Notes under the pieces: model-generated
The model's input: the letters and a program-made list of their open reading frames with translations, nothing else
What the model was told of the DNA's origin: nothing
The model's database searches: none
Shown here: positions 38,509-64,000 of the stretch, piece by piece
How positions within the stretch are numbered: position 1 is the stretch's first letter
Layout: each line of letters begins with the position of its first letter
NCBI GenBank assembly: GCA_014773175.1
Contig: VXCM01001435.1
Coordinates: 38,237 to 102,236, forward strand
Origin: Lucifuga dentata
Lineage: Eukaryota; Chordata; Actinopteri; Ophidiiformes; Bythitidae
Length of the DNA stretch: 64,000 bases
Direction of reading: 5' to 3'
Program-made: the position numbers and the translations under genes

Positions 38509-41500
38509 CTAAAGGAAGTTGAGTTTGTCTGACTTGAAGATGTCTGAGACAGATGTGTCAGAACTGAGAGGAGGAGCAGAGGGAAACTTGAGGCTGTCCA
38601 GCTCAAACTGATGCTCTGCAGGAGCTGAGGAGAGACTGTCAGAGCCAAAAGGCAGCACAGATGAAGCTGTTCCCTGAGGTGTGACCTGGAGAAAGACAGA
38701 CAACAACAAAGTAAATGTGTGTCTGTGTGATTAATAAAGACCACAGGGTACTTCAACAATAGAAAAATGGGCCAGTGAATACATCCTTAAGAGTTGTGTT
38801 CTTTCTATGCCACTTCATCCTGGAAGAGGGTGCAAGTCAAGGCAGAGGTGAAAGAGTCTTACAGATTGATGGAGAGCTGGAGAGAGACTCCACCCTCCCT
38901 TTTTTGGGGGTAGAGGGTCATTGGCCTTGGTGGAGGCATGCAATCTGAGTGCCTTCTTATTTATTCAGCAATAAAACAAAGACAAAGAAGATGGAAAAAT
39001 AAATAATATGTTTGTCCTCTACATCAAAGTAGAGAAGATGGAGAATCTTCTGTTAATTTGACAAATGTGGAGTTTTAACATGTTGCAAAAGTGGAGGTAG
39101 TGCATGCACCAAAACAAAAGTCAAGCTCTGCTCGTAGGCCCCTCATGGGTGGCACAACCATGATATTTGGACCAATTGTGGCCTGTGGACAGTAGCAGAA
39201 GTGGAAAACATAAAAGGCAAAGTGTGGGCAAAAACACAAAGAATACAAGAATACAGAAGCCTTAATTAGTGTAGAGCATTGCAAGATGTGTTTATGTGTT
39301 TTTACCCTGAAAGTTCATAGATTTGCACGGAGTTCTCCATGCATACCTGAGGTTGAGATGAGCTCATGTGGACGCCAGCTGGACTGTACGCCTGTAAGGT
39401 GGAAAAAGGCGAGTCATACTTGGGGGAAAAAAAGGATTACAGGATGAAACCAAGAAGTTCAATTATATTAAATACAAAATACTGCACTTACTGGTGGATC
39501 AGGAGGGCCAGATGTAGTTTCTGAGGAGCTGATGGGATGGCTGATGGGATTCACGGGATGGTAGGTGTAAGGTGGAACCTGTGATGAAGCCAAGTAACTT
39601 GTTCCTGCAGGTTGAGGCATATTCTGCAATTTGGCAGAAGAAGCTTTAAGTAGCTATTTAGCTTTGTGTGATGTTCATTTTTTTTGTTACAGAGTCCTGT
39701 GGGTCTGGTGGACCCACAGCATTATTGGGGTTTTAAAGCAATACAACAACACAACCATAGCAATTTAGCTCAATTACAAACAATATAGACAAAATATATG
39801 GTTAATGTTTGCCATTTACCTCTGCTAGAATACATTTATGATTAAAAGCCCTATTCATTTTTTTTGTAACAGAATGTGATTTTTGAAAAGAAGAAAAAAT
39901 TAGGTTATACTCAAGACATGGATGACATGGATGTGTCCCTTCCCCCAGTTTGGAGCTGGGGTGCAGTGTGAGAAAATACTGAATGCTTACCATGTTTTGA
40001 AGATATTACACAGGTTCCCGTAAGAATTTAAAAAAACCACACCAGGTGTAAGGTGCGAGAAAATGAAGGCTCTCTTTGTCTCACAATATAACAGTGTTGC
40101 AACATTTTCTGAGCGTGCCAAGTTTCCTGCACTACAGAGGTAAAGAGAGTGTGGGAGCAGGCAGGTAGTTCTACCTGGGCCAAGTGTGTGTATTGAGAGG
40201 TGATGAGATTTGGCTTGGGACATTTAGCAATCACACAAAATCATATAAAATGGTGGACAGGGGCGTGTTCAAGCTATGAATGCATGTTGCAAATCTATAG
40301 GAGCAATCATACATACACACACACACAGCAGGCCAAGGTAGGAGGAAGACAGTATGAAGGTAAACAGGCTCATTTTTACCACGTTAACATGCTTTCACCT
40401 ACAATTTCCACACTTGTATCAGCCCTGCACACCTCATATGTAATGTAAATGTGTGTGTGTGTGTTTCAGGGTTATAAGCATGCCCTCGTCTCTATCCTTC
40501 TGAAGTAAACAAAAGCAATATAATATTTAAACATATTTTTGCATGCTTGACTTGTACAATCTGGCTCTAAGAAAGCCTCTTTCTGGCATACTTACATGGT
40601 AATACACAGGTAATGCAGTTTGATGTTCAGATTGAGGAACAGCGTTGTCTCTTTTAGAAGAGCTTTTTGTACAGCAGCGCTTCCTCACACACCAGCAGCA
40701 GAAAATCAGCCCGATAAAACCGACAGTCCCACACACAGTCAATATAATGGGAGCATAATACAAATTTGGAGGTTCTTCTACAGAAGAGCACAGAGACACA
40801 AGGGACAGGAGGGATTATGTTCATTTGAAACATCAGTAATAAGTTTTGCATTTTTTTCTGCTGTAAGAAAAAACACATGCTGTTACTCACCATGTACTTT
40901 TAACTGCAGAACAAGCCCCAGGTTGCCATTCTGGTCTGTGATCTCGAAGCGGCCAGAGTCACGTTTTTCTAGGTTTTCAATTTTGATCCCCAGCGTGGGC
41001 ACAGTAGATTTCAGCTCTTTAATTCTCCCTGAAAATTGCTGGTCTGACATATAATGGTCAGCGTGCACCAGAACACCTGATTTCATCAACACCATGGGTT
41101 TCATGTCCAAATATGGGCGAAAGGTCACAGTGCACATGTCGGGCTCCAGAGCAAAAGAGATGATGAGATCCTCTTTTACCTTTTTCTCAACATATTCAGT
41201 GTACGCTGTGTATGAGGAAGAGAAGATTGTGTCAGAACTTTTATCACAACAGTTTAACATGTGCTGCTAAATTATTGTCATCACCTTCTACTGTAAGCCT
41301 CCACCTTCTAAGCAGCACGTTGTCTTTTCCCCTGAAGTTGTAGTAGCCGTTGTCTGCTTGAGTCAGCTTCTTCATCTCCCAAACATTCTGCCACACTTCC
41401 CCCCTGCCACCCCTGTGAGTCTGAGAGTCAGTGAGATTCCAAAGAACTGTTGTCTCGTCTTTACTTCTAGGAGTGAATTCTAAGAACTGTGTGCCATCAG

Positions 41501-42836
41501 GAACCTTGCAGGTGTACAGCGCCCCGTATTTCCTCGATTCCTCTTCAGAACAATCTAAAAAAAAAAAAAAAAAAAANAAAAAAAAAAAAAAAAAAACATA
41601 TAGAAAAAACAGGATAGGCTGATTTTTTGAAAGAATACAATGTATGACAAAAATGATTTGCTGATTGATTTTGATGTAACAGTGCCTTTAAATATGCTGT
41701 GCAGCATTCTCACCCACAACTTTCAGTCTGATGATGTCGTGTGTGAAACCGGTAGACAGCCATGTTATTGCAAAAGTTCCTTCATCTCTTTCTGTCAAAT
41801 CTGGCACAGAAATTGACTTTTTGATCACCTTGTAGCGTGGATCCATTATCTTATTTTGGCAACAAGACAAATGCATTCAGTCAGGAACATCCACCATCCA
41901 CCATAACCAAATTGTACTTTATATGGAAGCCACATCAATGAGATATTATTAACTTAAGTACCAGAAGACACTCACCCGCGTATTATTCATCACTATTTTT
42001 TTTTCACCACCCTTACTTGGAGTGAAGGTCAGCACTCCAGAGAAAGTATCCGTTTCATGCTGAGATGGCAAGGTGTAAGTAGCACCATAACACACTTTAT
42101 CAGCAGCATATTCCGGTATTGAAAAACCTTTAACTAAAAAAAAAACAAACAAAAACCAAAATAAAACAATGCAAGCAATGAAGAGACAGCAGTGGAAAAT
42201 GTAAAGTCTGGTACTATATGAAATCTGACAAAAATTGACAGATTTGTAAATGCATTTGTGAACAAACGTAACTGTAAATGTATAAAATAATTTTTGCACG
42301 TCCACTTGTGTAAACAAAATAGTGAATTTTAAGAGCTCAATACTGAAAGATCAGGTCATATGAATCCCTTCGAATGTGCCACAAAATTCTTTTAGATGTG
42401 CCACAAAACCGACTTTATCAGTGCTTTAGCAGCAATCATTATCATAACAAAACATAACAAATGACAAACTGATCAATTTGCACTTAATGTGAGTCTACAT
42501 GCTACATTATTTTTTGCTTCAAAACCAATATTGTCACTAAGGTTAATTTGAATCCTAAAGCTTTTTAGTTACATTTTGCTTGATTTAATGATTGTTGCAT
42601 AAATTTGTAGCAAACGGTGCACTTTTAATCTAAGTAACAGACTTTAACTGCAACTGGCAGTTTCAACTACACAGACTATAACCAGTGTGAAGTAATTATA
42701 TCCAAGTAACAGGAATAAAAAATTAAAATATTATGAAGCTCTGATAATAATTTGTTTTCTATGTGAGCAGCCGGACATGAGCGACGTCATACTCACCAGT
42801 AGAGAAACAGATGACAGCGAGGAGCAGCGGTATCAT
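38509..42836 (-). CDS. Receptor copy A: type I membrane protein, three Ig-like domains
   Basis: Nine coding exons on the minus strand: 42836-42797 (signal peptide MIPLLLAVICFST), 42133-41976 and 41849-41714 (domain 1), 41554-41285 (domain 2), 41205-40891 (domain 3), 40777-40596 (stalk, TM, juxtamembrane), 39623-39492 and 39391-39347 (tail), and 38685-38509 (tail and stop). All join in phase to 484 residues. The domains look like V/I-type Ig folds by their F-strand motifs (ERDEGTFAI, QADNGYYNF, KRDSGRFEI), but each lacks the usual F-strand Cys, so the normal Ig disulfide cannot form. N-glycosylation sites: NNT and NLT. The TM is followed by FCCWCVRKRCC. The tail has many Tyr, including YHNM at an exon junction (fits both YxN and YxxM). 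I do not recognise the family. A fish-specific immune-type surface receptor or adhesion protein is an inference. Confidence 0.8.
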
Positions 42837-42962
42837 GTCCTACAGAGAAAGACGTAAATACCGTGTTATTACCTTAAAAAGACCTACAACAATTGTAGTG
42901 GATAAAATATTTATAAGCTTTAAACAAAGAATAAACAGTTACACAAACGGTTTAGTACTTAC

Positions 42963-43037
42963 TTCAGGTTTATATTCTGGTTACACCCTGTTTTCATGCG
43001 CACTGAAAAATACAGACAGTGACTCAGTGGGCGGGGC
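42963..43037 (-). promoter_or_regulatory. Copy A 5' UTR exon and GC box
   Basis: On the minus strand a non-coding exon ends at a GTAAGT donor (exon edge 42963). Upstream at 43029-43037 is GGGCGGGGC, an Sp1-type GC box. Copy B keeps the same arrangement (donor edge 55319, GC box 55384-55392), which supports a real promoter. Confidence 0.5.
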
Positions 43038-43192
43038 TTCTTTCCTGTGTAAAATGACAAAAAATACACGAAAAAAAACATATAAACTAAGTAAAAAAAA
43101 TATATACAAATCACGCACACACACACACACAGATACACACACACACAACACGTACAAACTATGTACACCAGTTTTTTTCCCACATATTTAAA

Positions 43193-43748
43193 TTAAAGGA
43201 CTTTACTGGTGATTTTAATGTTTCAGCCCACTAAATACAACTCGTCCCATATGTTACTTTACTGCCAATAATTTTTCAAAACATCCTGCTGGAGCAGTAA
43301 GTCTTAGTTTTATTTTTCGTACCTTCCAGGTAGCCCTTTGTTTCAGTTCATTCTGGAATAAGAAACAACTTGTAGGGACTTGGAGCATGCTGAGCTAAGT
43401 CATCCATCAAACAAAACGTTTATTAAATTTTTTGTCAAAGTAATTCTATTTAACTGGTCCAACACACAAATGGAACACATGGAAGAAAATGTCTCCAACA
43501 GGTACAGTCTGAGGAGAATATTACGTTTATCAATAAATTAAAATGGCCACAGATTTGTTGCACAAGTGTTAGCAGGTGAAACATTGAATTTTATGGTGAG
43601 TGTATCACCTGAACATTTGATTTTGAAAAATTAGGGGATTTGGCAAAATAACATGAAAACCAAAATACGATTTTATGTTTTAGAAAACGTTGGCAGTAAT
43701 GTATACACATGTCTGCAGATAGTATTTATTGGGGTATGGTCCCTTAAA
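43193..43748. mobile_element. TTAA-type MITE upstream of receptor copy A
   Basis: Starts TTAAAGGACTTTACTGGTGA and ends at GGTATGGTCCCTTAA, with the inner arms TTACTGCCAATAATTTTTCA and AAAACGTTGGCAGTAATG in inverted order. TTAA is present on both sides. The interior matches the 11.4 kb copy. No ORF. Confidence 0.75.
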
Positions 43749-44479
43749 ATCACTTGTAGTAATAACTTGCTGTAGTAATTTTTCTTGTGAAGACAAACTT
43801 TATTATTTATGTCTGGTTGTGTCGCATTCTTCTAAGATTATTATAAATTATTGAAAATGCTTTTGTAAAGGCAGTCTCAGTCTACTCTTGTTTTTGCCAT
43901 TTTATATAGTAATATACACTGTTTTTGACTTAATAAATAATTTAAGTAGTAGCATTAGTAACTTTATTTCAAACACATAAAAGAAAGACATACAAACCAG
44001 AAAAAACATATAAGACGAGTAAAAAAAAAACAACACAAATATTCACAACAAACAACTATACTTATACCAATGTTTTCTCAGCTTGGACTGCATTCGTACA
44101 GAACTGAGCTTTGCATTAACCAAAAACATAAATTTCATTCACAGATTCGTTGGAATGACAAATAAATCTATGCATTGCATTTCTCAAAATAGCTTGAAAG
44201 GTATTCATTGACAAACATCTCACTACACCATGTAAATTTTTTGAGCAGAATTTGCACGGCATCATATAGGCAACTTGAAGCCTACATATACTTGCATTTT
44301 TATAGTTTACCCACAAGGTGGGAGATAGAGTGGGGTACAATATGCCCTAAGAGCCACTTTAACCTCCTATGTACACATATTAAATTTTTATATTAGCATG
44401 TTGGCCTGAGCATAATGCGACACTGCCTAAGAATATCATCATCAGACATTTCCTGTTATGTAGTGCCCAAAATATTTTG
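43749..44479. other. Spacer, probably LINE 3' flank
   Basis: AT-rich with no gene seen. It lies just 3' of the minus-strand LINE RT region and may contain its 3' end. Confidence 0.35.
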
Positions 44480-46655
44480 TTTTATTTCAGGTGATGCAAT
44501 TGTCCAGATAATTTAAAATCAGGAAATAGTTGATCTTTATCTTCCTTGGTTCTACTTTTCATTAGAAAACTTTTGCTAGCATTACATTTAATATCATATG
44601 TAATTCCATAATCAGAGCATATGGTCAAAAGCTGTTGAAAAGCAGCGCTACTAGGACTAAAAACCACCAGATCATCTGTATACATGAGATAGTTTGCCAG
44701 TATGCCACCAACCAAACACCCTGTTTTACAGGCTTTCAGCTGCATGGAAATTGTTCATGTGCAGGTTAAAGAGGGCTGGAGACAAAAGCCCACCTTGCCT
44801 CACCCCATTTCCTACATTAGGTGGAGAGACACAGTTCCCCCATTGCACCTGCATAGACTGGTTAACTTACCAATATGCAAAGGAAGTTTGACCTCTAGAT
44901 ATAAATAAGTTGACAATTTCTTTTATAGCATAAATACACAGTTCTGTACCATGTTTGGCTTTAAATCCAATTATATGTCTGTAGAGACTATAAATTCCTC
45001 TAAAGTCTCCAACAAAATTCTTTCCAAAACATTTGATTAAATGCTGGCTAACACAATTGACCTGTAATTATCAAGGCTACCAATCTTGCCAGCTTTGTCC
45101 TTTATGACAGGGGCTAGAACGACAGGCAACATTGAATCTGGTTGTACACCATGAATAATAACGCTAGTGAAACAGCAAGAAGAGGAGCTATCCTTGGGCT
45201 TGTATATTTGAGATGTTCTGCAGTGACATGATCTGCTCCATATGCCTTATTATCAGTCAGCTTACTTACAATTTGGTAAACATCCTATGTAGTAATTCCT
45301 TTTATGTCACTATCAACAATTTTATCCACTTCATATCACTTTTTATACAATTGAATAAAGGAGAAAAATGCTCCCTCCACATTTCAGCAATATTGTCTGC
45401 ACCAATAACACCATCTATAGTGCAAGGCAGCAGAATATTATCATTGTTAAGCTCTCACCTCCTTCCAGAAGTCAACAACTTTGCAACCAAGCATCTTCTC
45501 AGATATCAACTGTACTCTCATAGTTTGTTCATTTTTGCAGACAAACCGAACTGAATTTGTATCTTGCATTAGCAATATTTTTATACTCCAAGACTTGTCT
45601 CTGTCTTGGCTTACCCGCTAAATCCCAAGCCTTAAAAGCTTTTTGGGCTTCAGTGTGATATGCAGCTACATACTTGTTCCAACCAGACCTGATTTTGGCT
45701 GCCTCACATCTGTCCTTGTTCAGTGACTTGCTAGTCTCACACAAGGCTCCAATTATACTGTCATAAAAATCACAAATTTCCTTGCAATGTGTATTTTCAT
45801 TACAGTTAGAATTATTATACCTAATTACTTTGGTAAATATAATTTAATAACTTATCTGTATGCCCACAGTATAATCAAATATCTTCCTTAGTGAGGTTTG
45901 CCCAATCTATTTACCCAAAAAGGCACTTTTAACACTGCTAGATAGTTCAGGAATATTATCAGCATTAATGGTCATAGTAAATGGTGTATGATTGATCAGT
46001 CATAGTTGTCCCATACAACATGCTCATAAACCCCTGTGAAGCATGTGCATCAGCAGTGCTGATACAATGGTCTAGCCTTGATATTTTATGCCAGGCTTCA
46101 CTGATATACGTATAACTATAGGTGGGCAAAAACAATTGACTGGATATTATAAAATGGTTATCCTGACAAAATTGAACCATATGATTAGCAAATAGATTAA
46201 AAAAAAATCAAATTCGCAAGTTTGAAAAAAAAATCCTACATTGTAGGGAATTTTAAGGGATTTTTCTCACAAAGTTGGGTTTAGGAGTTTTCGCCATCAG
46301 AGGTCGGCATTCATATCCCCAATGATATAAACACTTGAGGTAACATTATTTTGACGAAAGTAATTTATAAAGGCATATTCCCCATTCTGTTGACACTCAT
46401 AAGGTGTATAGACATTCGGGAGAATTAATTCCCTGTTATTATTTTTGAAGTGTATGGCAATACGCCAGTCATCACCAAGCCTGATGACATTTAGTAGTGA
46501 GTCAAGCTTCTTGTGCCATAGGATAGCCACGCCCCCTGCTATTCACCCTCTCACTATTCCCATAGAAAGATCAGTTGTAGACTCACCAGCCCCATGGAAG
46601 TCATCATTGAAGGAGGTTTCTTGCAGTCACAGTTCTCCATCAAGTTGTTAACAAC
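44480..46655 (-). mobile_element. Decayed non-LTR retrotransposon (LINE)
   Basis: On the minus strand the parts appear in LINE order. First an endonuclease region (46530-46297, with VYTPYE and IIGDMNADL), continuing after an insertion near 46,190-45,970 (YTYISEAWHKISRLDHCIS). Then a linker (45744-45529, WNKYVAAYHTEAQKAFKAWDL). Then the reverse transcriptase, from GADHVTAEHLKY near 45,235 to the catalytic motif YTDDLVVFSP near 44,680. Frameshifts and stops are frequent, so it is dead. It resembles L1/Tx1-like fish LINEs, but I do not fix the clade. Confidence 0.85.
46192..46295. repeat. Short repeat shared with the B/C block edges
   Basis: A segment of about 100 bp containing AAATTCGCAAGTTTGAAAAA and GGAATTTTAAGGGATTTTT interrupts the LINE endonuclease. 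Related copies lie at about 47,581-47,640 and 57,431-57,550, at the proximal edges of the two duplicated receptor blocks. Confidence 0.65.
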
Positions 46656-47568
46656 TGTTATATTTTCGCATAACAGTGAAAATGTGTTTTTTTAAATACT
46701 AAATTATTCATGGTTGCAATTTTTTCATTATTCTTATGGAACACATGCAGTTTAATACAAGGATGGAAATTTTACTCCCCAACCAATGTAAAGGTTATTT
46801 TGTAATGTGTTTTAGATGTACATCATTCATTTTTGTTTGAGATGCCTTATTTTCTTCCACTGTAGACCTATTATTCCAATCTCTTGCATTCATGTGTGTA
46901 ACCTTTTACTAATTTACACCAGTGTGCAAATGTTTTTAATAGAAATTGACACTTTTGTTCACCAAGGTGATATATTTAATTGACATATAGCAAGACATCA
47001 ATACTGTTGCAAATGGCATTCCTGCTGGAAATGACTGATTAAGTATTCACAGAAATCTGCGAAGCCCCATTTTCAGCAGCCAATGCTCTAATGTCCTAAT
47101 GATAAAAATTATTTTAGCTCATCCTTAATCCTGTTTAAATGATATTAGAGGCTGTTAACAGAGGTGGACTGCGCATTGATTCTGGCGTGGAGACCAATGC
47201 TAGCCCTAAAATAATTCCAGAGGAATTAACACAGAGTGGGTTATCAGTTCTGCTCAACTGGAAAGATACATTTGTATAATTGAGAGCATGTTTTCATATA
47301 TGTCAACAGAGGCACTTTTGTAATTGTATTGCCACAACTGAAACCCGGTATGAAGTTTACATTGAGCTTATTGCATTTACGGTAATTCTGTGTGTGGGGG
47401 AGGTATGTGTGTGTGTGGAGGTGTGTCACTGGGATTGGCGGAAATGGTGATTCTATATGCATGAAACTAATCTCAGTAACCGGATATACAGTATATTCTC
47501 TTGGACTACTCAGAAATCAGAAATAGTATTGCAATACTATTATCAGGTAATTACAAAATTACCTGATA
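46656..47568. other. Spacer with a Tc1-end fragment
   Basis: About 46,913-47,175 is a left-end fragment of the Tc1-like family seen at 8.4 and 13.1 kb (GTTTTTAATAGAAATTGACA; TTCACCAAGGTGATA). The rest shows no gene or other recognised element. Confidence 0.5.
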
Positions 47569-48692: not shown

Positions 48693-48736
48693 CACATCTG
48701 ATCGCTGGACGAGTTAATGTCCAGCGATCAGATGTG
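48693..48736. repeat. 18-bp inverted repeat, potential cruciform
   Basis: Arms 48693-48710 and 48719-48736 are exact reverse complements (CACATCTGATCGCTGGAC and its complement) with an 8-base spacer. The paralogous site in unit C near 58,705-58,740 has lost part of it, keeping 11-bp arms. Confidence 0.8.
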
Positions 48737-48826
48737 CACCACGTCGGTACATGGTGCTCTAGCTTGGTTCTGGCCACTGCATTTGTGGTAGCTAACATTA
48801 GCATTAACACTTAAACTGACAGCATT

Positions 48827-48953
48827 ACTGATGATATTAATGCAACAGATTTGAACAACTGAATGTTACTACAGTGCTTTGGTCACAAANACTGATGATA
48901 TTAATGCAACAGATTTGAACAACTGAATGTTACTACAGTGCTTTGGTCACAAA
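48827..48953. other. 63-bp duplication around an N (assembly join)
   Basis: Bases 48827-48889 equal 48891-48953, with an N at 48890. The same 63 bp and the same N occur at the paralogous place in unit C (58826-58952). Confidence 0.85.
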
Positions 48954-49056
48954 GTGCAAGTGGTCATCAGAAAGGCACTGCTTTACCAGTTATGCTGAGA
49001 TACAAGGTTATGTAGATCTGCACAGGCCATTGGCATGCTGGGCCTCTGTACTAATG

Positions 49057-49079
49057 TGTGTGTGTGTGTGTGTGTGTGT
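49057..49079. repeat. (TG)n microsatellite
   Basis: About 11 TG units. In the paralogous place in unit C (about 59,056-59,067) the run is much shorter, an easily typed difference between the two blocks. Confidence 0.85.
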
Positions 49080-50938: not shown

Positions 50939-51695
50939 TTAAAGGAAGTTGAGTTTGTCTGAGGTATAGACATCTCAGAAAGATGTGTCTGAACTGAGGG
51001 GAGGAGCAGAGAGAAACTTGAGGCCCTTCAGCTCAAACCGATGCTCAGGAGTTGAGGAGAGACTGTCAGAGCCAAAAGGCACAGATGAAGCTGTTCCCTG
51101 AGGTGTGACCTGGAGAAAGGCAGACAAAAACAAAGTAAATGTGTGTCTGTGTGATTAACAAAGATCACAGGGTACTTCAACAACAGAAAAACAGGCCAGT
51201 GAACATGTCCTTAAGAATTGGAGTTCTTTCTATGCCACTTCATCCTGGAAGAGGGTGCAAGTCAAGGCAGAGGTGAAAGAGTCTTACAGATTGATGGAGA
51301 GGTGGAGAGAAACTCCACCCTTTTGGGAGGGTGGAGGGTCATTGGCCTTGGTGGAGGCATGCACTCTTGGAGTGCCTTCTTATTTATTTAGCAATAAAAA
51401 GAAGGCAAAGAAGTTGGAAAAATAAATAATATGTTTGTCTTCTACATCAGAATAAAGAAGATGGAGAATCTTCTGTTAATTTGACAAATGCGAAGTTTTA
51501 ACGTGTTGCAATAGTTGAGGTAGTGCATGCACCAAAACAAAAGTCAAGCTCTGCTTGTAGGCCCCTCACGGGTGACACAACCATAATGTTTGGACCAATT
51601 GTGGCCAGCAGATGGTATCAAAAGTGGAAAACATAAAAGGCAAAGTGTGGGGGCACTGCAGAAAAATACAGAAAGAGCCTTAATTAGTGTAGAGN

Positions 51696-51736
<41 letters not shown>

Positions 51737-54700
51737 TGCTGATTTTCATAGATTTACACAGCCTCAGGCGTACCTGAGGATGAGATGAGCTCATGTGGAC
51801 GCCAGCTGGACTGAACACCTGTAAAGTGGAAAATGGCATGTGAGTCATACTTGGGAAAAAAAAAGGATGACAGGATAAAACAAAGAAGTACAATTATATT
51901 AAATACAAAATACTGCACTTACTGGTGGATCAAGAGGGCTGGATGTAGGTTCTGAAGAGTTGATGGGATGGTAGGTGTAAGGTGGTGGAACCTGTGATGA
52001 AACTGAGTAACTTGTTCCTGCAGGTTGAACATCCTACAATTTGACAAACAATGCTGAAATAAGCCAACTCATAACATGTTGTCGTTGAATGTAAATGCAT
52101 GTCTTTATATTTCAACATCTACTTATGACAACATGCATTTTTGCTAACTGACTTTAAAAAAAAAAAAAAAANAAAAAAAAAAAAAAAATGTGCATAGAAC
52201 TCAGTATATTTGAATGCCTACCTTTTTTTTTTATCAAGCTAATAGCTATGCAATATATTTGTGAAAGGGATATTTACCATAAGCTTTTTGGCTCTTTCCT
52301 TGCTTTACTTTCTTTTAATATTATGTGTGTTTTATGTATATAATTGTACAAAAATACTCCACTTACTGGTGGATTAATGGAGCTGGATGTAGGGTTTGAA
52401 GATTTGATGGGACTGTTGGGATGGTGGGTGTGCAGTGGAAACTGTGGGGAAGCTGAGTAACTTGTTTCTGTAGGTTGAGGCGTATTCTGTAATTTAACCA
52501 AAGAAGTTTAAACAAATGTGCAAAAGAGACCTTTCTTGGCAATTGATGATCTCTAGGTGTTGTATTTCTATGTTCATTTTGCCAGTCATGTGTAACTGAT
52601 TTGAATCATTAGTTCGAAATAAAGGTGATTCTTAATCCTGGTTGTTGAGGACCACAGCTCTTTTATTTTCCATCTCTCCCTGCTCTACTCACACCTGATT
52701 AGTGAAATACAGTGTATTCACTTGGTGCATTCCAAAGCTCTTTTTGTCATTCAGGTTTTATCCTGAAGAAGGGAGGACGTCAAGCATTTGTAAATATCAA
52801 TATTGCATCAAGATTTTGAGCATGCCCTCGTCTCTATCCTTCTAAAGTAACCTGAGCAATATAAAATTTACTTTTTATACTTTTTCATGCCTGACCTATA
52901 TAATCTGGCTCTTAGAAAGCCTTTTTGGCATACTTTCATGGTGATATACAGCAGGTGCATCCTCAGATTGAGGAACAGCCTCGTCTGATTTAGAAGATCT
53001 TTTCTTACAGCAGCACTTCCTCACACAGCAGCAGCAGAAAATCAGCCCAATGATAATACCGACAGGAATGGCAATATATTGAAATGTTAGAGGCTCTTCT
53101 GTAAGAGCACAGAGACACAAGGGAGAGGAGGTATTATGCTCCTTTGAAATATCAGTAACAGGCCTTGCAATTTTTTTTTTTTTTTGCTATAAGCAAAAAA
53201 AAAAAAAAAACATGCTGTTACTCACCTTCTACTTCTAAATACAAAACAAGTGCAAGGTTGCCATCCTGGTCTCTGATCTCAAAGCGGCCAGAGTCACGTT
53301 TTTCTAGGTTTTCAATTTCAATCCTCAGTGAGGACGTATATCCCAGCTTTTTAATTCTCCCTGAAAATTGCTGGTCTGAGATATAATGGTCAGCATGCAC
53401 CAGAACACCTGATTTCATCAAAACCATGGGTTTTATGTCTAAATTTGGGTGAAAGGTCACAGTGCACACGTCGGGTTCCAGAGCAAAAGAGATGATGAGA
53501 TCCTCTTTTACCTTTTTGTCAACATACTCAGTGTTCTCTGTGGATCAGGAAGACAAGATTGTGTGAGAACTTTTATCACAACAGTTTAAATGGCTCATGT
53601 GCTGCTAAATTATTATCATCACCTTCTATTGTAAGCCTCCACCTTCTAAGCAGCGCGTTGTCTTTTCTCCTGAAGTTGTAGTAGCCATTGTCTGTTTGAG
53701 TCAGCTTCTTCATCTCCCAAACATTCTGCCTCACTTTCCCCCTGCCACCCCTGTGAGTCTGAGGGTCAGTGAGATTCCAAAGAACTGTTGTCTTGTCTTG
53801 TCTTGACTGATGGGAGTGAATTCTAAGAACTGTGTGCTGTCAGGAACCTTGCAGGTGTACGTCCCCCCATATAGCTGCGATTCCTTTTCAGAACAATCTA
53901 AAAGCAAAACAAAACAAAAAAAAAAGATACACAGAAAAAACAGGATTGCTGAATCTGTGAAAGAATACAATGTGTGACAAAAATGATTTGCTGATTGATT
54001 TTTGATGTAACAGTGCCTTTAAATATGCCATGCAGCACTCTCACCCAAAATTTTCAGGCTGACGACAGTATGTCACCATGTTATACAACTTCACCACAAA
54101 ATTTCCTTCATCTCTTTCTGTCAAATCTGGCACAGAAACTGAAGTCTTGGTCACCTTGTAGCGCGGATCCACTCCCTTATGATGTAGACAACACAAATAG
54201 ATTCAGTCAGGAAAAAGAACATCTCCACCACTGACCAAATTGTACTTCATATAGAAGCCACAACAATGAGATATTATTAATTTAAGTACCAGAAGACACT
54301 CACCCGCGTATTATTCATCACTATTTTTTGTTCACCGCCCTTACGTGGAACGAAGATCAGCACTCCAGAGAAAGAAGCAGGTCCATACTGAGATGGCAAG
54401 GTGTAAGTACCGCCATAACACACTTTATCAGCAGAAAATGATGAAAAACCTTTAACTAAAACAAAAAAAAAAAAAAAAAAANAAAAAAAAAAAAAAAAAA
54501 ATGCAAGCAATGAAGAAATGAAGAGACAGAAGTGGAAAATGTTAAGTCTGATACTATATGAAATCTGACAAAGATTGACAGATTTGTAAATGTATTTGTA
54601 AATAAATGCAAATGTAAATGTATAAAACAATTTTTGCACGTCCACTTGTGAGAGGTTTATTAACTCAATATTGAAAGATCAGGTCATATGAATCCTTTCG

Positions 54701-55195
54701 AGTAAGTCACAAAATTCGTTTAGATGTGCCACAATACTAACTTTATCAGTGCTTTAAGTAAGTGCTTTAAGCAGCATTAAGTATTCATCATAACATAATA
54801 AACATAACAAATGACAAACTGAACAATTTGTACTTAAAATGACTCTGCTTGCTAAGTTATTTTTTTTACTTCAAAAACAATATGGTCACACAGGTTAATC
54901 TAAATCCTAAAGCTTTTTAGTTGTATTTTGCTTGATTTAATTATTTATGTTTGCTACATAAATTTGTAGCAAACGGTGCACTTTTAATCAAAATAACAGA
55001 CTTTAACTGCAACTGGCAGTTTCAACCACACAGATTATAACCAGTGTTAACTAATTATATCCAAGTAACAGGAATAAAAAATTAAAATATTATGAAGCCC
55101 TGATAATAATTTGTTTTCTATGTGAGCAGCCGGACATGAGCGACTTCATACTCACCAGTAGAGAAACAGATGACAGCGAGGAGCAGCGGTAACAT
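50939..55195 (-). pseudogene. Receptor copy B: broken paralogue of copy A
   Basis: Exons align with copy A: 55195-55156 (signal), 54455-54304, 54175-54045, 53897-53623, 53537-53226, 53098-52938, 52486-52367, 52033-51923, 51818-51774 and 51109-50939. At least four lesions are visible. The second half of domain 1 is 131 bp against 136 in A, a 5-bp loss that shifts frame. The domain 2 exon has 5 extra bases in a GTCTT-type run near 53,790-53,805, a second frameshift leading to a stop. The donor after the TM exon is GA instead of GT (52937-52936). The last exon carries TGA at 50977-50975 where copy C has TCA. The domain 3 and TM exons remain open (IISFALEPDVCTVTF; GLIFCCCCVRKCCC). The tail cassette is doubled compared with A. 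I call it a pseudogene. Assembly error cannot explain all four lesions together. Confidence 0.82.
51696..51733. repeat. (CA)n microsatellite next to an N
   Basis: About 19 CA units directly follow the N at 51695, so the true length is unknown. Copies A and C have ordinary sequence here (about 39,270 and 61,705), so the join has probably dropped the homologous segment. Confidence 0.75.
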
Positions 55196-55383
55196 GTCCT
55201 ACAGAGAAAGACGTAAATACCGTGTTATTACCTTAAAAAGACCTACCATAAGTATAACTGTAGTGAATAAAAGCGTTAAACAAAGAATAAACAGTTAGAC
55301 AAAAGGTTTAGTACTTACTGAAGGGTTATATTCTGTGTTCCACCCTGTTTTCAAATGCATAGAAAAACAGACATGGACTTAGT

Positions 55384-55392
55384 GGGCGGGGC
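55384..55392 (-). promoter_or_regulatory. GC box upstream of copy B
   Basis: GGGCGGGGC in the same position relative to the non-coding first exon (donor edge 55319) as in copy A. Confidence 0.45.
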
Positions 55393-55399
55393 TTTCCTG

Positions 55400-55950
55400 G
55401 GCTTTGCTTTGCTTTGCTTTCCTCTTTCCTGTGTAACATGTACAGTGAATGTGACAGTACGTACAAACTACGTAAAAAAAAAAAAAGAAAGAAAAAAGTG
55501 GCCTAACCTCCAACTTATTTTTTTCTTCCATGTCTCCTTTATATACAGATCCTATATATCCTACATATATATACACTACATATACACACGCATATACACA
55601 TATATACATATACACATATATAGATATAGTTCAATTCTATGTTTTTGCACTAACATGGAATAATAAAAGTAAGAAGTTCAAGGAGTATGGCGTCCTGGTG
55701 TGCGATGTTTTACCTTTAATATTTGTCATTGTGTGTGCTTGCATCAGCACCTGGGAAGGTACTAACTAGGCTTCATTCCATATATACAGTATATATAGGA
55801 GACATGGAAGTTGAAGTTTGTTTGGTTTTTTTTTTACTTCCAACTGATTTTTTTCTTCTTCTATGTCCCCTTGGGAGCATCCTTTGTTTTTCCCACATTT
55901 TTTTACCACTTTTTTTTTTTTTTTTTTTTACAACCCCCTAATGGGGGATC
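55400..55950. other. Spacer with TA/CA-rich simple repeats
   Basis: ATACACATATATAC-type low-complexity sequence around 55,545-55,630, and a long T-run at 55,909-55,930. The similarity of copy A to copy B ends around here. No gene is seen. Confidence 0.4.
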
Positions 55951-56690
55951 GTGAATGCCTTATCTGTTGTGACAAATGATGAAATTATGCCAAATGACAG
56001 TGTCTCAAATATTAGCAACAGAAGGAATGGATCAAAATCAAGAGCTTCCACCACTTCTACAACTTCTGCTCGAATTAAAGCTGAAGCAGAAATGGCTGCT
56101 CTCCTTGTTTGTCAGACATTATTTAAAAAAATAAACATGCTTGGGGAACAGCAAGAGGAGATAAGGAAGCAGCAAGAGCAGCTTGAACTTGAGCTGAATA
56201 TAGCTGCATCAGTGGCCAAGGTAAATGTATTAAGGGCCTCGGGATCTGGAGTTCAGGGCACTGCATCTAATCTGATGGTATGGAATCATATTTTAACAAA
56301 AAGGGGGAAACAGCTCATAAACATTTTGATGCTGATTCATTTGTTCCTCATATAGATGGAAAAACATTGTCATCCAGGAATATCCCTGATTTTAGTTTGA
56401 CTGGTGCAAAGCCAAAGGAAATGAAATATGCTGAAATAATACATCACAAATATCACGGCAGCAGTTTGTTCAACCCAGAGGGCACATGATCAAATGTTCC
56501 AATTGTTAATTTGTCACAGAATGTGGATGTTGGTTTCAGTAATGAAAGACCTTTGTTATTCATTCTGGAAAGGCAAACTGAAACAACTGTCCTATTGGTG
56601 AAACAGCAACAGATCTCATCTTTGCCAAGGAAGGATATTGCAGTGTTCGATGGAGATCCTTTGCAGTATCATACTTTTTGTTGTTGTTAT
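55951..56690 (+). mobile_element. BEL/Pao-type gag fragment
   Basis: The + strand reads, with one frameshift near 56,275 and a stop near 56,487, as a Ser/Thr-rich start (SRASTTSTTSARIKAEAEMA), a Lys/Gln/Glu coiled coil (EQQEEIRKQQEQLELELNIA), and finally LPRKDIAVFDGDPLQY near 56,620-56,670. The last motif is characteristic of the gag-like region (DUF1759-type) of BEL/Pao LTR retrotransposons. It is cut off right after this by unrelated sequence with (TTG)n. No protease, RT or LTR is seen. Confidence 0.7.
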
Positions 56691-56699
56691 TGTTGTTGT

Positions 56700-57425
56700 T
56701 GCTTTATTTCAATATAATACACACAGAAAAAATATAACCAAATAATACAGCTTAATTATTACAATTCCTCCTGGTCCTCATCCTCACCAACAGCNCCCCC
56801 CTTCATTAAAATACTTTGCATCACAGAACCCCATATTTTGTCAAATATTTCAGGTTTTCCCCTCATGTTATACATAATTTTGTCTGAGGTACAGCATGAT
56901 AAAAGTTCATTCCACCATGTGAGGGTAAGTCAGACTTCCAGAATTTTTTTTAGCATTTAGCATTTTTTAGTTGCTGCCATAGCAAGCAGAACCATTTTTT
57001 TGTGAGGCATATCCAAACCACAGCTGGATGGTACATCAGTATCCCCCAACAGAACCACACTTGGATCCATCTTAATATCTTTATGTCAGAATTTACTGAG
57101 CTTTCTGTATCTTTATGTCTCATAATTCTCCAATCTGTTACATCCCCAAAAACATGTGAATTGTCTGCATTTTCTTCCTTACATCTTGGACACATGAAAG
57201 ATGTTGGATAAAACTGATGCAATTTCCCAGGAGAATAATAAGTGTGATGTAAAATATTAAACTGGATTAGCCTGTGTCTGGTATTTGCAAGAATGGTGTG
57301 TGAGGCTTTAAGGCTCTTTTCCCATTTTTGTAACTGTATAGCTTTTGTCCAGGTCTTTTTCCAATTTCTCCTTATTAATTACATGCTCCTGCTTCAAATG
57401 TGTATGTAATTATAAAATCACCAAT
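56700..57425 (-). mobile_element. LINE 3' part (ORF2 C-terminus)
   Basis: On the minus strand from about 57,225 the reading KLHQFYPTSFMCPRCKEENA fits the Cys-containing C-terminal region of L1/Tx1-type ORF2, followed by KKWFCLLWQQLKNAK. Frames shift and stops occur. The end toward 56,760 contains the N at 56795. It is probably the same kind of element as the 44.5-46.7 kb LINE, but covers a different part. Confidence 0.65.
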
Positions 57426-57430
57426 AGATA

Positions 57431-60400
57431 GATAGTAAAAAAAAAAAATTCAAATTCGCAAGTTTGAAAAAACAAAATAAAATTTCTACAATGTAAGGGA
57501 ATTTTAAGGGATTTTTTTTCTCAAAGTTGGGCTTAGGAGTTTTCACTTTTATTTATAAAGATATCACAAATATATGTGCACATATTCAAACAGTATATCT
57601 ACTAGTTCTAAAACATGCATGATTCATACAGATATGGCAAACTTGGATAACTATTTAAAGGGGTGACATAAACTCCAGGTTGAAATCCCCCATTAAGATT
57701 TGACAGTAACCAGTGCAGCATCTACAAAAAATTCTTGTTCCATATGCCAAAAACATTGATGGTCCTTTTTCTTCACACACACAAAAACCATGTATATTTA
57801 TGGGTCTATAACTTCTGCTTAGTTGAGTTTTCTTTGTGAAGAAGTTGCTATGGTTAGAAGGAATTTGTTGCTTGCGCTTTTTTGGGTTTGTGGTGGCTTG
57901 TTAGTTGGGTTATACTGAATTATAAGTCAGTGATCTTCTAGCACAAACCTCAACTATCTTCAGCAAAAAGAAACAAATGGCATCATAAACTGTATGAGAC
58001 AAAATCAGGGAGGTCAATAGTCACATCTTTGTACTACTGACATATACGTATATATGTGTGTGTGTTTATTCATTTTCTTCAATTGCTGACATATATATTT
58101 AAAGCACATTTCTGATATCACCTTTTTACATTAATGACCCTCTAAGACCTGCATTAAAGCTAGATAATAGCTCCAACATCTGCAGATGTATACTTTGCAT
58201 AGATAAAACAAGTGTGAAAAGGTATTTTTATAAACATAAAACACATGAAAAACAACATGCATCATTTCACAAACTGTAACAATAAAATTTACGCCATGAT
58301 GTTTGAAGCTAAAAACACGACAGGTGTTTGAAACAACCAAACAAATTTTTTGCAATGTAAGTCTTGATGGTTTTAAATGAAGTGTTTTCACCTACGTCAT
58401 GTCATGTGACACCATCACATTGATCTGCCAGATTGGTAGCTTCATTGAAAACAAACCACAGCAGTTCATGAGAAATTTAGTCCTAAGTGCCTCCATTCAG
58501 GCAAAATACTAATTAGCAGCTGCCGTGTATATCTTGCCGCTAAAGATAATGCCTGTATAGTCATTGTAAAAAAAAAAAAAAAAAANTAAAAAAAAAAAAA
58601 AAAAGATTACATATGGAAGCTGTTATCGATCCTGCAGAAAGTTCTAGCTGAGTTCAAGCAAAAAATCATGATGAAACTTCATACAGTAACTGTATCTCCA
58701 CCACATCTGATCGCTGGACATTAAGATCAGATGTGCACCATGCCGGTACATGGTGCTCTAGCTTGGGACTGGCCACTGCATTTGCAGTAGCTAACATTAG
58801 CATTAACACTTAAACTGACAACATTACTGATGATATTAATGCAACAGATTTGAACAACTGAATGTTACTACAGTGCTTTGGTCACAAANACTGATGATAT
58901 TAATGCAACAGATTTGAACAACTGAATGTTACTACAGTGCTTTGGTCACAAAGTGTAAGTGGTCACCAGAAAGGCACTGCTTTACCAGTTATGCTGAGGT
59001 ACAAGGTTATGTAGATCTGCACAGGCCATTGGCATCCTGGGCCTCTGTACTAATGTGTGTGTGTGTCAGTGCTGCCATATTCTCCAAGGGGAATGAGTAC
59101 AGGGCCAATATATCAATCAACCTCATCACAACAAGAGCCTTACCACCTCTATCCAATAGTTCAATTAAGTCACAAGTTTTCAGTTTCAGTTAATCCCTTT
59201 TCCCTCATCTGACATTTTAGAGACTTAGGGCAGGATTCAATAAACAACACACACCTTAACTACACAAACCATGTTACACTAAACAGAAGCTATTGGTAAT
59301 TGAAGCTTGTTCATAAACGCATGTTGTTGTAAGGTGTGTCAGTGATAAAAGCCAGTGAAGCTTGGCGTGCAAATCAGCAGCTTCATATTTAACAGCCACG
59401 CTTTATACTGCTTCCTCTGGTGTAAAAGCGAAATTGACATGTTAAATCTGCAATGGAATCCTAAATTCTCTGCTTGAGAGCTCCAGATTTTAAGAGAGAT
59501 TTGATCTGCACATTGGCACACGGGAGGAGTGTGTGATATGAGAGAGAGACACAAACACAGCGCACCAGATGAGGTTTGAGGAAGAGGTTCAGTGCCACAA
59601 GAATGTGTGTGAGATAAATCAAATCTCGCCACTTAAATATACTGACTGATCACCTGAGTCGGCTTAAATATCAAATTTAGCGATCACTAGCACACGGTAT
59701 GGGAAGCAAATAGAGTTTAAAATGTGAGATTTCACACCACTAAAATTTACCACCAGAGTGAAACAGATCTTAATTTTTGTGTGATCATGTGTTTTATGAA
59801 TTGCTTCCTTGACATGTAAATAAGAGGACAAATGCTAAAAGATTCTGCTAGCAGGCATTTATGAATGAGGGAACATGACTGTGTGATATTTACGCTTATC
59901 AACACATTATCAACACATTAAGTCTGGCACTGTGTTTTATGAATCCCGTGCTTATTTCTGAATCATTCCTGTAATTTATATGAATATATCTAGCAATACA
60001 CAGAGGAGGTGGCATTAGCCTATCAATATGGCGTATAATGAATCATCACGATTACTGATGTCACGTGCAAAATTCTGAGGTATAAAATGTTTTGGTTGCT
60101 CCCCTTTAGTGTATATGGCAGTATCATGGCTTTTAAATTCAAAAATATAAGGCAAAGTTGCTACTCTCAAGACCAATCAAATCTTCATCTCTAACTCAAA
60201 TTTGAGTTTTCTCAAATTTCCTACACCGACTAATTTTCACACATGCTCTATTCTAACACGGCGTATTTCTGGCCCATGACCTCCCTGGAAAAGGCAAAAA
60301 GCTTATTTATTATGTACAGTATACATTCTAAATATAGTCAAACTTTAAGTCACATATCTCTAATTCTACATCAGTCAGACACACAGACACTTTAAAGCTA

Positions 60401-60905
60401 AAACACGGATAATAAATAAGTGCAGCATTCTCTCTTACCTGAGAAAGTAGAGAAAAAAATTCAGAAATTAAATTCTAATCCTAAAAAATTTTATAAAATA
60501 TCAATCATTGGAATAGATTAAACTGGTTCATGTTTCAGTTAATTTTACAACACAAGAATCTATGTTGATTTATCGGCACCATATGTAAGGCTGAGTAAGA
60601 TTAAAAAACTAACTCAGAAAAATGACCTAATTATACCAGTATTATGCCAGTACAACATAATTTCTGTGTTTAAAATTGCAAAGAAATATGACACACACAC
60701 TTTCTTAAAACACACTTTGAAAGAGTGAGATAAATTGATCTTGTTGACTTGTTTCTTCCAGTCAACGTGGTTCTTTGTCTTGTGTTAGTATGTGTGAAAT
60801 CATTCCTTTTGATGCGTGCAGAGCATAATCCAATCAAGGACTGACTAAACTACATGCAAAGCAGTCATGAAGTGCAATAGTGAATCACGCACATGACTAA
60901 GGCCC
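57431..60905. repeat. Segmental duplication, unit C downstream flank
   Basis: Paralogous to 47,569-50,938, offset close to 10 kb. It contains an A-run with N at 58586 and the 63-bp join duplicate at 58826-58952 (N at 58889). No gene is seen. Confidence 0.85.
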
Positions 60906-63896
60906 TTAAAGGAAGTTGAGTTTGTCTGAGGTATAGACATTTGAGAAAGATGTATCTGAACTGAGAGCAGAGGGAAACTTGAGGTCCTTCAGCTCATACT
61001 GATGCTCAGGAGCCAAGGAGAGACTGTCAGAGCCAAAAGGCACAGATGAAGCTGTTCCCTGAGGTGTGACCTGGAGAAAGACAGACAAAAACAAAGCAAA
61101 TGTGTGTGTGATTAATAAAGATCACAGGGTACTTCAACAAGAGAATAATGGGCCACACACGTCCTTAACAGTTGGAGTTCTTTCTATGCCACTTCATCCT
61201 GGAAGAGGGTGCAAGTCAAGGCAGAGATGAAAGAGTCTTACAGTTGATGGAGAGCTGGAGAGACTCTACCCACTCTTTTTTTGGGGTTTTTTTGGCCTTG
61301 GTGGAGGCATGTATTCTTGAAGTGCCTTCTTATTTATTTAGCAATAAAAAGAAGGCAAAGAAGTTGGAAAAATAAATAATACGTTGTCTACATCAGAGTA
61401 AAGAAGATGGAGAATCTTCTGTTGATTTGTCAGATGTGGAGTTTAAACATGTTGCAAAAGTGGAGGCAGTGCATGCACCAAAACAAAAGTCAAGCTCTGC
61501 TTGTAGGCCCCTCACGGGTGACACAACCATAATGNAGTGCATGCACCAAAACAAAAGTCAAGCTCTGCTTGTAGGCCCCTCACGGGTGACACAACCATAA
61601 TGTTTGGCCCAATTGTGGCCAGCAGATGGTATCAAAAGTGGAAAACATAAAAGGCAAAGTGTGGGGGCACTGCAGAAAAATACAGAAAGAGCCTTAATTA
61701 GTGTAGAGCATTGTAAGATTTATTTTTACCCTGAAAGTTTTACTTCCCATAAAGTATAATGGGGCCTGTATAGTCTTTTTATAATCCCCCCGCCACCCCC
61801 ACTCCCACTCATGAAAATCGCTTTGCTGATTTTCATAGATTTACACAGAATTCTGCAGGCATACCTGAGGCTGAGATGAGCTCATGTGGACGCCAGCCGG
61901 ACTGAACACCTGTAAAGTGGAAAAAGGCATGTGAGTCATACTTGGAAAAAAAAAAAAAGGGATGATGGGATTAAATAATTATATTAAATACATAATACTG
62001 CACTTACTGGTGGATCAAGAGGGCTGGATGTAGGTTCTGAAGAGTTGATGGGATGGTAGGTGTAAGGTGGTGGAAGCTGTGATGGACCTGAGTAACTTGT
62101 TCCTGCAGGTTGAATGTCCTACAATTTGACAAACAATGCTGAAATAAGCCAACTGATACTGAACATGTTGTCGGTGATTGTCAATGAATTCTTTATATTT
62201 CAACATCTACTTATAACATACATTTTTACTAATTGACTTTAAAAAAAAAAAAAAAATTNAAAAAAAAAAAAAAATGTGCGTAGAACTCACTATACTTGAA
62301 TGTCTACCTTTTTTATCAGGCTAATAGCTATGCAATACATTTGTGAAAGGGATATTTACCATAAGCTTTTTGGCTCTTTCCTTGCTTTACTTTCTTTTAA
62401 TAGTGTGTGTGTTTTATGTATATAATTGTACAAAAATACTCCACTTACTGGGGGATTAATGGAGCTGGATGTAGGGTTTGAAAAGTTGATGGGACTGTTG
62501 GGATGGTGGGTGTGTGCTAGAAACTGTGGGGAAGCCGAGTAACTTGTTTCTGCAGGTTGAGGTGTATTCTGTAATTTGACCAAAGAAGTTTAAGCAAATA
62601 TTTCTTGGCAACTGATGATCTTCATGTGTTGTATTTCTACGTTCATGTTGTCAGTCCTGTAACTGATTTGAATCATTAGTTCGATATAAGGGTGATTCTC
62701 AATCCTGGTTGTTGAGGACCACAACCCTGTATATTTTCCATCTCTCCCTGCTCTACTCACACCTAATTAGGTACATTCCAAAGTTCTTAATCATTTCCAT
62801 GTTTCCTTCATTTTTTTTCCTCTCGTCTTAGTCCCACCCACTTAAGGCAAGAATAAAAGGTGCGAGAAATAAGACAGGAGAGCAGAGGAACTGAGGAACA
62901 ACAGATTTCCAGGTCACGTGAGGACTGAGATTCAAGAAACGATCGAATAAAAGCTTTGGAACACACCTTTGATCAAGAGTTGGTGCTTCTCAGATCTTAA
63001 ATGGTTAAGCACACCTGACTTGGTGAATCAGGTGTGGATAACAGCAAGAGATGGAACATATAGTAGTATAGCAGTTCTCAATTACCAGGATTAAGAACCA
63101 CTGTTAAAGAATATGCAGTACATTTGTCATTCAGGTTTCATTCTGAAGAAGGGAGGACGTCAACCATTTGCAAATATAAATATTGCATCAGGATTTTGAG
63201 CATGCCCTCGTCTCTATCCTTCTGAAGTAACCAGAGCAGTATAAAATTTAAACATACTTTTGCATGCTTGACCTGCATAATTTGGCTCTTAGAAAGCCTC
63301 TTTCTGGCATACTTACATGGTGATACACAGGTAATGCAGGTGCATCCTCAGATTGAGGAACAGCCTCGTCTGATTTAGAAGAGCTTTTCGTACAGCAGCA
63401 TTTCCTCACACAGCAGCAGCAGAAAATCAGCCCAATGATAATACCGACAGGAATGGCAATATACTGAAATATTGGAGGCTCTTCTGTAAGAGCACAAGGG
63501 AGAAGAGGGATTATGTTCATTTGAAACATCAGTAACAGTTCTTGCATTTTTTTCTGCTATAAGAAAAAAAAAAACACACATGCTGTTACTCACCTTCTAC
63601 TTTTAACTGCAAAACAAGCCCCAGGTTGCCATCCTGGTCTCTGATCTCGAAGTGGCCAGAGTCACGTTTTTGTAGGTTTTCAATTTCAATCCCCAGTTTG
63701 AACATATATCTTAGCAATTTAATTCTCCCTGAAAATTGCTGGTCTGACATAGCTTGGACCAGAACACCTGATTTCATCAGCACCATGGGTTTCATGTCCA
63801 AATATGGGTGAAAGGTCACAGTGCACACTTCTGGGTCCAGGGCAAAAGAGATGATGAGTTCCTCTTTTGCCTTTTTCTCAACATACTTAGTGTTCT
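60906..63896 (-). CDS. Receptor copy C, 5' part beyond or missing at window edge
   Basis: Visible exons on the minus strand: 63896-63594 (Ig-like domain 3, with IISFALDPEVCTVTF and KRDSGHFEI), 63483-63317 (stalk, TM, FCCCCVRKCCC), 62568-62449 and 62118-62008 (two tail cassettes), 61909-61865, and 61070-60906 (ends SDKLNFL, stop TAA). All open, in phase, with normal donors. So, unlike copy B, nothing in the visible half is broken. The juxtamembrane and tail are very like B (VPQSEDAPALPVYHH). The domain 2 exon, only 79-85 bp away in A and B, is not found in the remaining 104 bp. Signal peptide and domains 1-2 may lie farther right or may be gone. Function as for copy A: unknown, inferred surface receptor. 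Confidence 0.75.
61468..61602. other. 67-bp duplication around an N (assembly join)
   Basis: Bases 61468-61534 equal 61536-61602, with an N at 61535. The same 67 bp also occurs once in unit B (about 51,522-51,588), so the contigs probably broke at a repeat shared by the two units. Confidence 0.85.
62693..63110. mobile_element. Element with inverted ends in copy C tail intron
   Basis: GATTCTCAATCCTGGTTGTT near 62,693 is mirrored by CAATTACCAGGATTAAGAAC near 63,080-63,100. Compared with copy B, C has about 335 extra bases (about 62,788-63,123), including GAATAAAAGGTGCG and GAATAAAAGC. B keeps only the outer left part. A small DNA transposon, intact in C and internally deleted in B, fits best. 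Confidence 0.5.
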
Positions 63897-64000
63897 CTGT
63901 GCATGAGGAATACAAGATGGTGTGAGAACTTTTATAACAGAGCCAACATGAAGAAGGTTCTCCCAAAATACCACCAACACATCAGGTTTCCTACTAGGCA
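63897..64000. other. Intron edge where copy C leaves homology
   Basis: The first 45 bases (to about 63,942) match the domain 2-3 intron of copies A and B. After ACTTTTATAACA the sequence is unrelated to them. No exon is seen before the window ends. Confidence 0.6.

Follow-up and report, generated by a model that had tools for sequence, protein, structure and literature searches.

What kind of protein is encoded by the tandem genes at positions 38509 to 64000 of a 64,000-nucleotide stretch of the Lucifuga dentata genome (the window; contig VXCM01001435.1, here C1189:38237-102236)? In this ophidiiform fish, which we take to be cave-dwelling, the region carries a set of minus-strand paralogues, copies A, B, and C, with one common exon plan. 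A preliminary description saw a cluster of three surface receptors that it could match to no named family. The three paralogues are there, but the count should be at least four, including gene D, which lies on a second contig (C207). We rate the chances as about even that they represent a so far undescribed family of type I membrane receptors in teleosts, within the immunoglobulin superfamily (IgSF), clustered between TMEM109 and PRPF19, made up of two old types, and with a proposed role in phosphotyrosine signaling. The family is common to many bony fishes, farmed ones included, and apparently has neither name nor function in the record. In agreement with the preliminary description, no receptor family name appeared among the listed database rows for copy A, for a profile of its relatives (the A-type), or for gene D, and no account of the family was found in the open-access literature searched, which left out most subscription journals and the zebrafish gene lists.

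Gene structures and two receptor types

Copy A (38509 to 42836, minus strand) has nine coding exons for 484 amino acids (42836-42797, 42133-41976, 41849-41714, 41554-41285, 41205-40891, 40777-40596, 39623-39492, 39391-39347, and 38685-38509; start phases 0,1,0,1,1,1,0,0,0), with GT donors and AG acceptors throughout the splice model, which is identical to the deposited hypothetical protein LDENG_00284630 (P0001; 100% over 484 residues). The fixed plan described earlier, with signal peptide, three Ig-like domains, transmembrane (TM) segment, Cys run, and Pro/Ser/Tyr tail, is present as claimed. After the signal peptide, domain 1 is split by a phase-0 intron (exons 2 and 3); domains 2 and 3 occupy one exon each, the TM segment and Cys run share the next, and the tail is encoded by small phase-0 exons. 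Domains 1 and 2 (the latter in exon 4; together 41285 to 42133) were delimited from AlphaFold strands and conserved residues; domain 3 (exon 5) lies at 40891 to 41205, and the TM helix (modeled at residues 317 to 340) lies with the juxtamembrane Cys run at 40596 to 40777. The last exon (38509 to 38685) retains FPSAPPLSSD, with Phe replacing the tail Tyr (DIFKSDKLNFL). Sequence identity is 78.6% between A and B (4,689 aligned bases) and 90.1% between B and C (3,513 aligned bases); therefore, the likeness of the three copies is not due to chance. With copy A as the query, a search of the whole L. dentata genome, with scoring confined to the 20 top candidates of an initial scan, gave 23 matches, all on C1189 and C207.

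Gene D (C207:4503-7497, plus strand) has ten exons, counting one of 15 bases that is included in the annotated product LDENG_00036820. Apart from this additional exon its intron phases are those of the A-type, and it is a divergent fourth member of the cluster. The A-type and D-type profiles align with an hhalign E value of 1.1e-51 over 296 columns, and on this evidence the two types are homologous. Read across the two contigs, the genes run TMEM109 - A - B - C - D - PRPF19, the cluster being placed between the two named genes because a BRI3BP/TMEM109-type gene lies on one side and a U-box gene, past D, on the other.

Linkage of the A-type with the D-type, and of the D-type with PRPF19, was found in other fishes. 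Both types were paired by eye in 19 species, in 14 of which they lie on a contig of equal size, taken here as the same chromosome. Some pairs have neighboring LOC numbers (LOC108242329/108242330), and P0004 (A-type) and P0140 (D with PRPF19) are g20967 and g20968, adjacent-numbered genes on one scaffold. The D-type is annotated as fused with PRPF19 in four rows from other fishes, by name in P0150 and P0166 and by a PRPF19 domain list in P0140 and P0165. These are chimeras of public annotation, two of which carry the name Pre-mRNA-processing factor 19.

Searches at E ≤ 1 with the copy A protein and with the profile returned 46 and 48 proteins, respectively, Lucifuga entries included. All named species are acanthomorph fishes, as read from the names, and the proteins are called "uncharacterized" or "hypothetical" or are unnamed. 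The gene D search returned 129 proteins. Among the 120 matches listed are acanthomorphs (pollock, burbot, and Lampris too), salmonids, pike, mudminnows, Aplochiton, and sardine, under the names uncharacterized, hypothetical, unnamed, and "Ig-like" or "Immunoglobulin subtype" domain-containing, plus two PRPF19 fusions. No tetrapod name occurs among these 120 of 129 matches beyond one Mustela label, in cluster P0062, whose other members are labeled Oreochromis; we take it as a mislabel. Rows from the source "lgn" sit on contigs that barely exceed the frame (P0007: 496 amino acids on 1,748 bases) and are taken as spliced transcripts.

In a tree of 32 A-type and 8 D rows, a single branch separated the two types (support 100/100). 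The three Lucifuga copies, B being represented by its annotated fragment, fell together (100/99), with Genypterus on the sister side (100/100). Because they group beside Genypterus, the A-type triplication appears to postdate the Lucifuga/Genypterus split. From the sequences compared, the triplication is particular to the Lucifuga lineage; many acanthomorphs carry the A/D pair.

Mean identity to the L. dentata protein in 19 species was 42% for the A-type and 68% for D, with D higher in 19 of 19. The rapid evolution suggested in the preliminary description holds for the A-type, D being slow. The A-type has one to three rows per species in a protein database clustered at 90% identity, where near-identical copies are possibly hidden. 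It has the look of a single old group rather than of a large multigene family in rapid expansion. The copy number change and decay also proposed were borne out, by duplication within the Lucifuga lineage and by copy B, a pseudogene. Between copies A and C, dS is 0.18 and dN 0.153, a ratio of 0.85; by part, dN/dS is 1.02 in domain 1, 0.84 in domain 2, 0.66 in domain 3, 0.84 in the tail, and 0.64 in the last exon. By this simple method no ratio for the pair was clearly above 1, which suggests weak constraint and is no proof of positive selection.

Predicted Ig folds and conserved motifs

AlphaFold predicted three beta domains, a TM helix, and a disordered tail for copy A, with block values of the predicted local distance difference test (pLDDT) mostly of 79 to 97 and of 62 to 77 at residues 251 to 270. 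The top Foldseek match of the A-type was the polymeric immunoglobulin receptor (pIgR; best E = 4.4e-18), and secretory component/pIgR was also top for D. In profile searches of the PDB the best matches were to Ig-domain proteins, Robo2 for the A-type (E = 2.8e-6, among the best 60 of 113 rows) and LRIG1 for D (E = 8e-5, 11 rows). With Pfam at E ≤ 0.1, 20 of the 39 A-type rows matched V-set and 24 matched Ig_CD22; I-set was matched by 20 of the 27 D rows (one row entered twice). Precomputed matches were to V-set in P0003, P0036, and P0040 and to Ig_CD22 in one row, P0004. A PDB search with the single sequence of copy A returned nothing significant, and alignments were needed. With VIA-align, in a comparison limited to its listed families, domain 3 was mostly matched to antibody V domains, the rest being barely tested. 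These predictions and top matches point to three Ig-like domains, as the preliminary description had proposed, and place the receptors in the IgSF by predicted fold.

The DxG(xY) motif before strand F is conserved. In the A-type alignment D88, G90, G181, Y183, D284, and G286 are invariant and D179 is nearly so; the counterparts in D are DQGLY, DQGNY, and DG.Y. Ig domains usually, though not obligatorily, have a Cys pair that joins strand B to strand F, and no such canonical pair is conserved in the A-type (39 rows) or D (26 rows). With the signal peptide excluded, Cys fills at least 30% of rows in just two ectodomain columns of each type, C28 (all 35 rows reaching it) and C113 (39/39) in the A-type and C31 and C113 (26/26 each) in D, and the positions of this invariant pair do not fit the B and F strands of the AlphaFold model. 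The family is an apparent case of Ig domains lacking the canonical disulfide at all three positions.

Motifs of the tail and inner membrane were counted in the same 39 A-type and 26 D rows, with chance levels from 200 shuffles. The D tail has Tyr at a single column in 23 of 26 rows, with Thr or Ser at -2 in 22 and Val or Ile at +3 in 25. Y.P[VI] occurs in 21 of 26 D tails (shuffle mean, 1.4) and in 20 of 39 A-type rows (2.4). The immunoreceptor tyrosine-based inhibitory and switch motifs (ITIM and ITSM) are used as defined in PMC12151841, with TxYxx(V/I) as the ITSM consensus. The L. dentata D site, TGYTTV, fits this consensus. Of the 26 D rows, 11 have its strict form (shuffle mean, 0.9), as do 2 of the 39 A-type rows (0.8). 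The fixed-column [TS]GYxPV site of D is taken as one of ITSM/ITIM type. A conserved, slow partner gene with such a site is new beyond the preliminary description.

The C-terminal element VY.S.[KN]L is shared by the two types (32/39 A-type and 25/26 D rows), and we know of no binding partner for it. The very last residue varies (Leu in 32/39 and 18/26 rows, respectively), and a PDZ ligand at the C terminus was dropped on that account. Two further features belong to the A-type and are absent from D (0/26 each). P[ST]AP, a TSG101-binding motif, is present in 29 of its 39 rows, against a mean of 2.3 in shuffles, and 38 of the 39 have four or more Cys near the inner end of the TM segment; the Cys columns 333, 334, 336, 341, and 342 hold Cys in 33 to 39 of 39 rows. 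An activating receptor was considered and dropped, a charged residue occurring in the most hydrophobic 19-mer of only 2/39 A-type and 0/26 D rows. In L. dentata the A-type tail elements are divided: copy A keeps PSAPP and has Phe for Tyr, and copy C keeps the Tyr and lacks two Pro, while the Genypterus A-type retains both elements. The division may be drift, since it is seen in a single lineage.

Proposed function and competing explanations

The tail motifs suggest that this family is probably phosphotyrosine signaling, and our best guess is a regulatory Ig receptor; its role in immunity is putative. Slow-evolving D genes are found in fishes as far apart as sardine, salmonids, and percomorphs, and the fast A-type has so far been found in acanthomorphs only; in the Lucifuga lineage it reached three copies, one of them dead. 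Lacking the usual disulfide, the three Ig-like domains would bind a ligand on another cell. Phosphorylation of the D tail at [TS]GYxPV may recruit SH2-domain phosphatases or adaptors, and the common C-terminal VYxSxKL may dock a constant intracellular partner. The A-type would be lipid anchored through a putatively S-acylated Cys run and would use its PSAP and YxPV sites. It is possible, though we hold this version only tentatively, that the two form a never-described pair, so far restricted to teleosts, in which a constant, ITSM-bearing D and a fast A-type share the VYxSxKL docking element and Ig domains without canonical disulfides, and in which the living Lucifuga copies A and C have split the tail elements, perhaps by complementary loss. 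The candidate phosphotyrosine site, conserved and of checkpoint type, sits on a receptor so far seen in teleosts alone and, like the near-invariant tail end, lends itself to direct testing.

Several observations weigh against a regulatory, immune-type receptor or its fold. Predicted template modeling (pTM) scores were 0.58 and 0.47, five D models had pLDDT of 45 to 63, and Foldseek TM-scores were low, which makes the predicted arrangement of the domains provisional. Adhesion molecules and titin are among the matches by structure and by profile, and for that reason the fold does not point to immunity; copy A alone had a single Pfam match, to Ig_CD22 at 17.2 bits against a cutoff of 27. Immune receptors do not usually evolve as slowly as D, and the ITIM-type pattern of the A-type is near chance (15/39 rows; shuffle mean, 8.9; maximum, 16). 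D has only one ITSM-like site, compared with ITIM plus ITSM in PD-1, and the residue before its Tyr (pY-1) is Gly, unlike the hydrophobic residue that PMC12151841 reports for the CD150 switch.

An adhesion or junction receptor with no immune role, using its Ig domains for contact, its tail to engage a scaffold, and its Tyr site for endocytosis or scaffold binding, would suit the nearest solved structures by profile (Robo, contactin, LRIG1, VEGF receptors, titin, and JAM-A), the slow D type, and a C-terminal element that is near-invariant in both types. We consider it unlikely, though a serious contender, as the terminal residue is variable, contrary to a PDZ ligand, the A-type evolves fast and duplicates in single lineages, and D has its fixed [TS]GYxPV site. 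It is rather improbable that the A-type duplicates of Lucifuga are under relaxed selection and decaying, with no function at present, leaving D as the sole functional gene of the cluster. At a dS of 0.18, both A and C retain their splice signals and open frames of 484 and 501 codons, and the dN/dS values of domain 3 and the last exon are the lowest of the pair; the death of copy B, the overall and domain 1 ratios, and the loss of the tail Tyr from A and of PP from C are what such decay would leave.

A diverged member of a named family (CD2/SLAM, LITR/FcR-like, NITR, or Siglec/CD22-like), beyond the reach of sequence search, seems quite improbable. CD2/SLAM receptors have a V-C2 ectodomain with a first domain lacking the canonical disulfide and a second domain with two disulfides. 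The cluster genes resemble them as type I IgSF receptors with such a domain 1 and, in D, an ITSM-type tail site, and the A-type profile matched CD48 at E = 0.082; Ig_CD22 in 24 of 39 A-type rows also leans toward a named family. Unlike the CD2/SLAM plan, three domains are predicted, domain 2 has C113 at its start as its only conserved Cys, the neighbors are TMEM109 and PRPF19, and there was no significant sequence match. The NITR V domain carries a J-like FGxG motif, which is absent from all 65 rows (0/39 A-type and 0/26 D). The NITR and LITR families, both described in PMC4810170, are likewise teleost Ig receptors with turnover in single lineages, as in the A-type, but 63 of 65 rows here lack a charged TM 19-mer, rows per species are few, and D is slow; this separation was made without aligning any LITR or NITR sequence. 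The multidomain ectodomain resembles pIgR in Foldseek, at 14 to 18% identity in rows with low TM-scores, and differs from it in having no conserved canonical disulfides. With PD-1/BTLA-type checkpoint receptors, D shares the fit of TGYTTV to TxYxx(V/I) as PMC12151841 gives it; D differs in having one site and not two, three Ig domains, and Gly at pY-1 where PD-1 has Glu.

Copies B and C, flanking genes, and assembly features

Copy B (50940 to 55195, minus strand) is a pseudogene with multiple lesions in ten exons (55195-55156, 54455-54304, 54175-54045, 53897-53623, 53537-53226, 53098-52938, 52486-52367, 52033-51923, 51818-51774, and 51109-50940). Exon 3 is 131 bases long (136 in A and 133 in C) and exon 4 is 275 (270 in A and C), both of which disrupt the frame; the exon 6 donor is GA in place of GT, and an in-frame TGA lies within the last exon, where the tail reads LSAPP and stops ahead of the conserved Tyr. 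It is annotated as LDENG_00284640 (P0047), a 264-amino-acid product with a late start and the TM exon skipped.

Copy C is incomplete in the window because C1189 (102,236 bases) ends there. Its exons 5 to 10, all open, lie at 60906 to 63896 on the minus strand (63896-63594, 63483-63317, 62568-62449, 62118-62008, 61909-61865, and 61070-60906), and exons 1 to 4 are at the start of C207, also on the minus strand (3121-3082, 1369-1218, 1096-964, and 830-561). We infer the join across the contigs from order, phase, and sequence identity; read together, they give a frame open for 501 codons, with the break in intron 4. This intron spans at least 664 bases (C207:1-560 and window 63897-64000), compared with 79 in A and 85 in B, and the assembly likely broke there because of repeat-like sequence at the contig break. 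The last exon of C retains NVYTSDKLNFL and is without the PP of PSAPP. As to exon gain, another earlier proposal, B and C carry an additional 120-base tail exon that resembles each copy's own next exon (B7 and B8, 82% over 108 bases), which may be a gain in B/C or a loss in A.

The BRI3BP-family gene (33871 to 34767, plus strand) was tested in two exon-bearing frames (Pfam BRI3BP, E = 1.1e-6 and 1.5e-35). We take it to be TMEM109, the name used in the preliminary description and presumably a member of that Pfam family. Beyond D, the U-box gene begins at about C207:9366 (Pfam U-box, E = 3.3e-7 for 9549-9695) and is, we presume from its sequence, PRPF19. Between A and B lies a degenerate retroelement (44116 to 46542, minus strand, extent judged by eye from open frames), with an RVT_1 match only for 44482-44754 (E = 9.8e-6) that falls under the Pfam cutoff. 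A second remnant between paralogues, without a Pfam match, is at about 56950-57378. Such remains may have aided tandem duplication.

Small hydrophobic exons occur at 10814-12609 of the window; our impression that they form an MS4A/TMEM176-type gene was dropped as unsupported by Pfam. Tandem duplicates of about 64 to 68 bases (98 to 100% matches) with a single N between the repeats are found at 5542-5677, 37975-38110, 48827-48953, 58826-58952, and 61468-61602, and a like one, seen by eye, is in an exon of gene D (L009, about 5865-5995), where the annotated protein reads the duplicate once. These look like an assembly artifact and not biology. The remaining single Ns lie within homopolymers.

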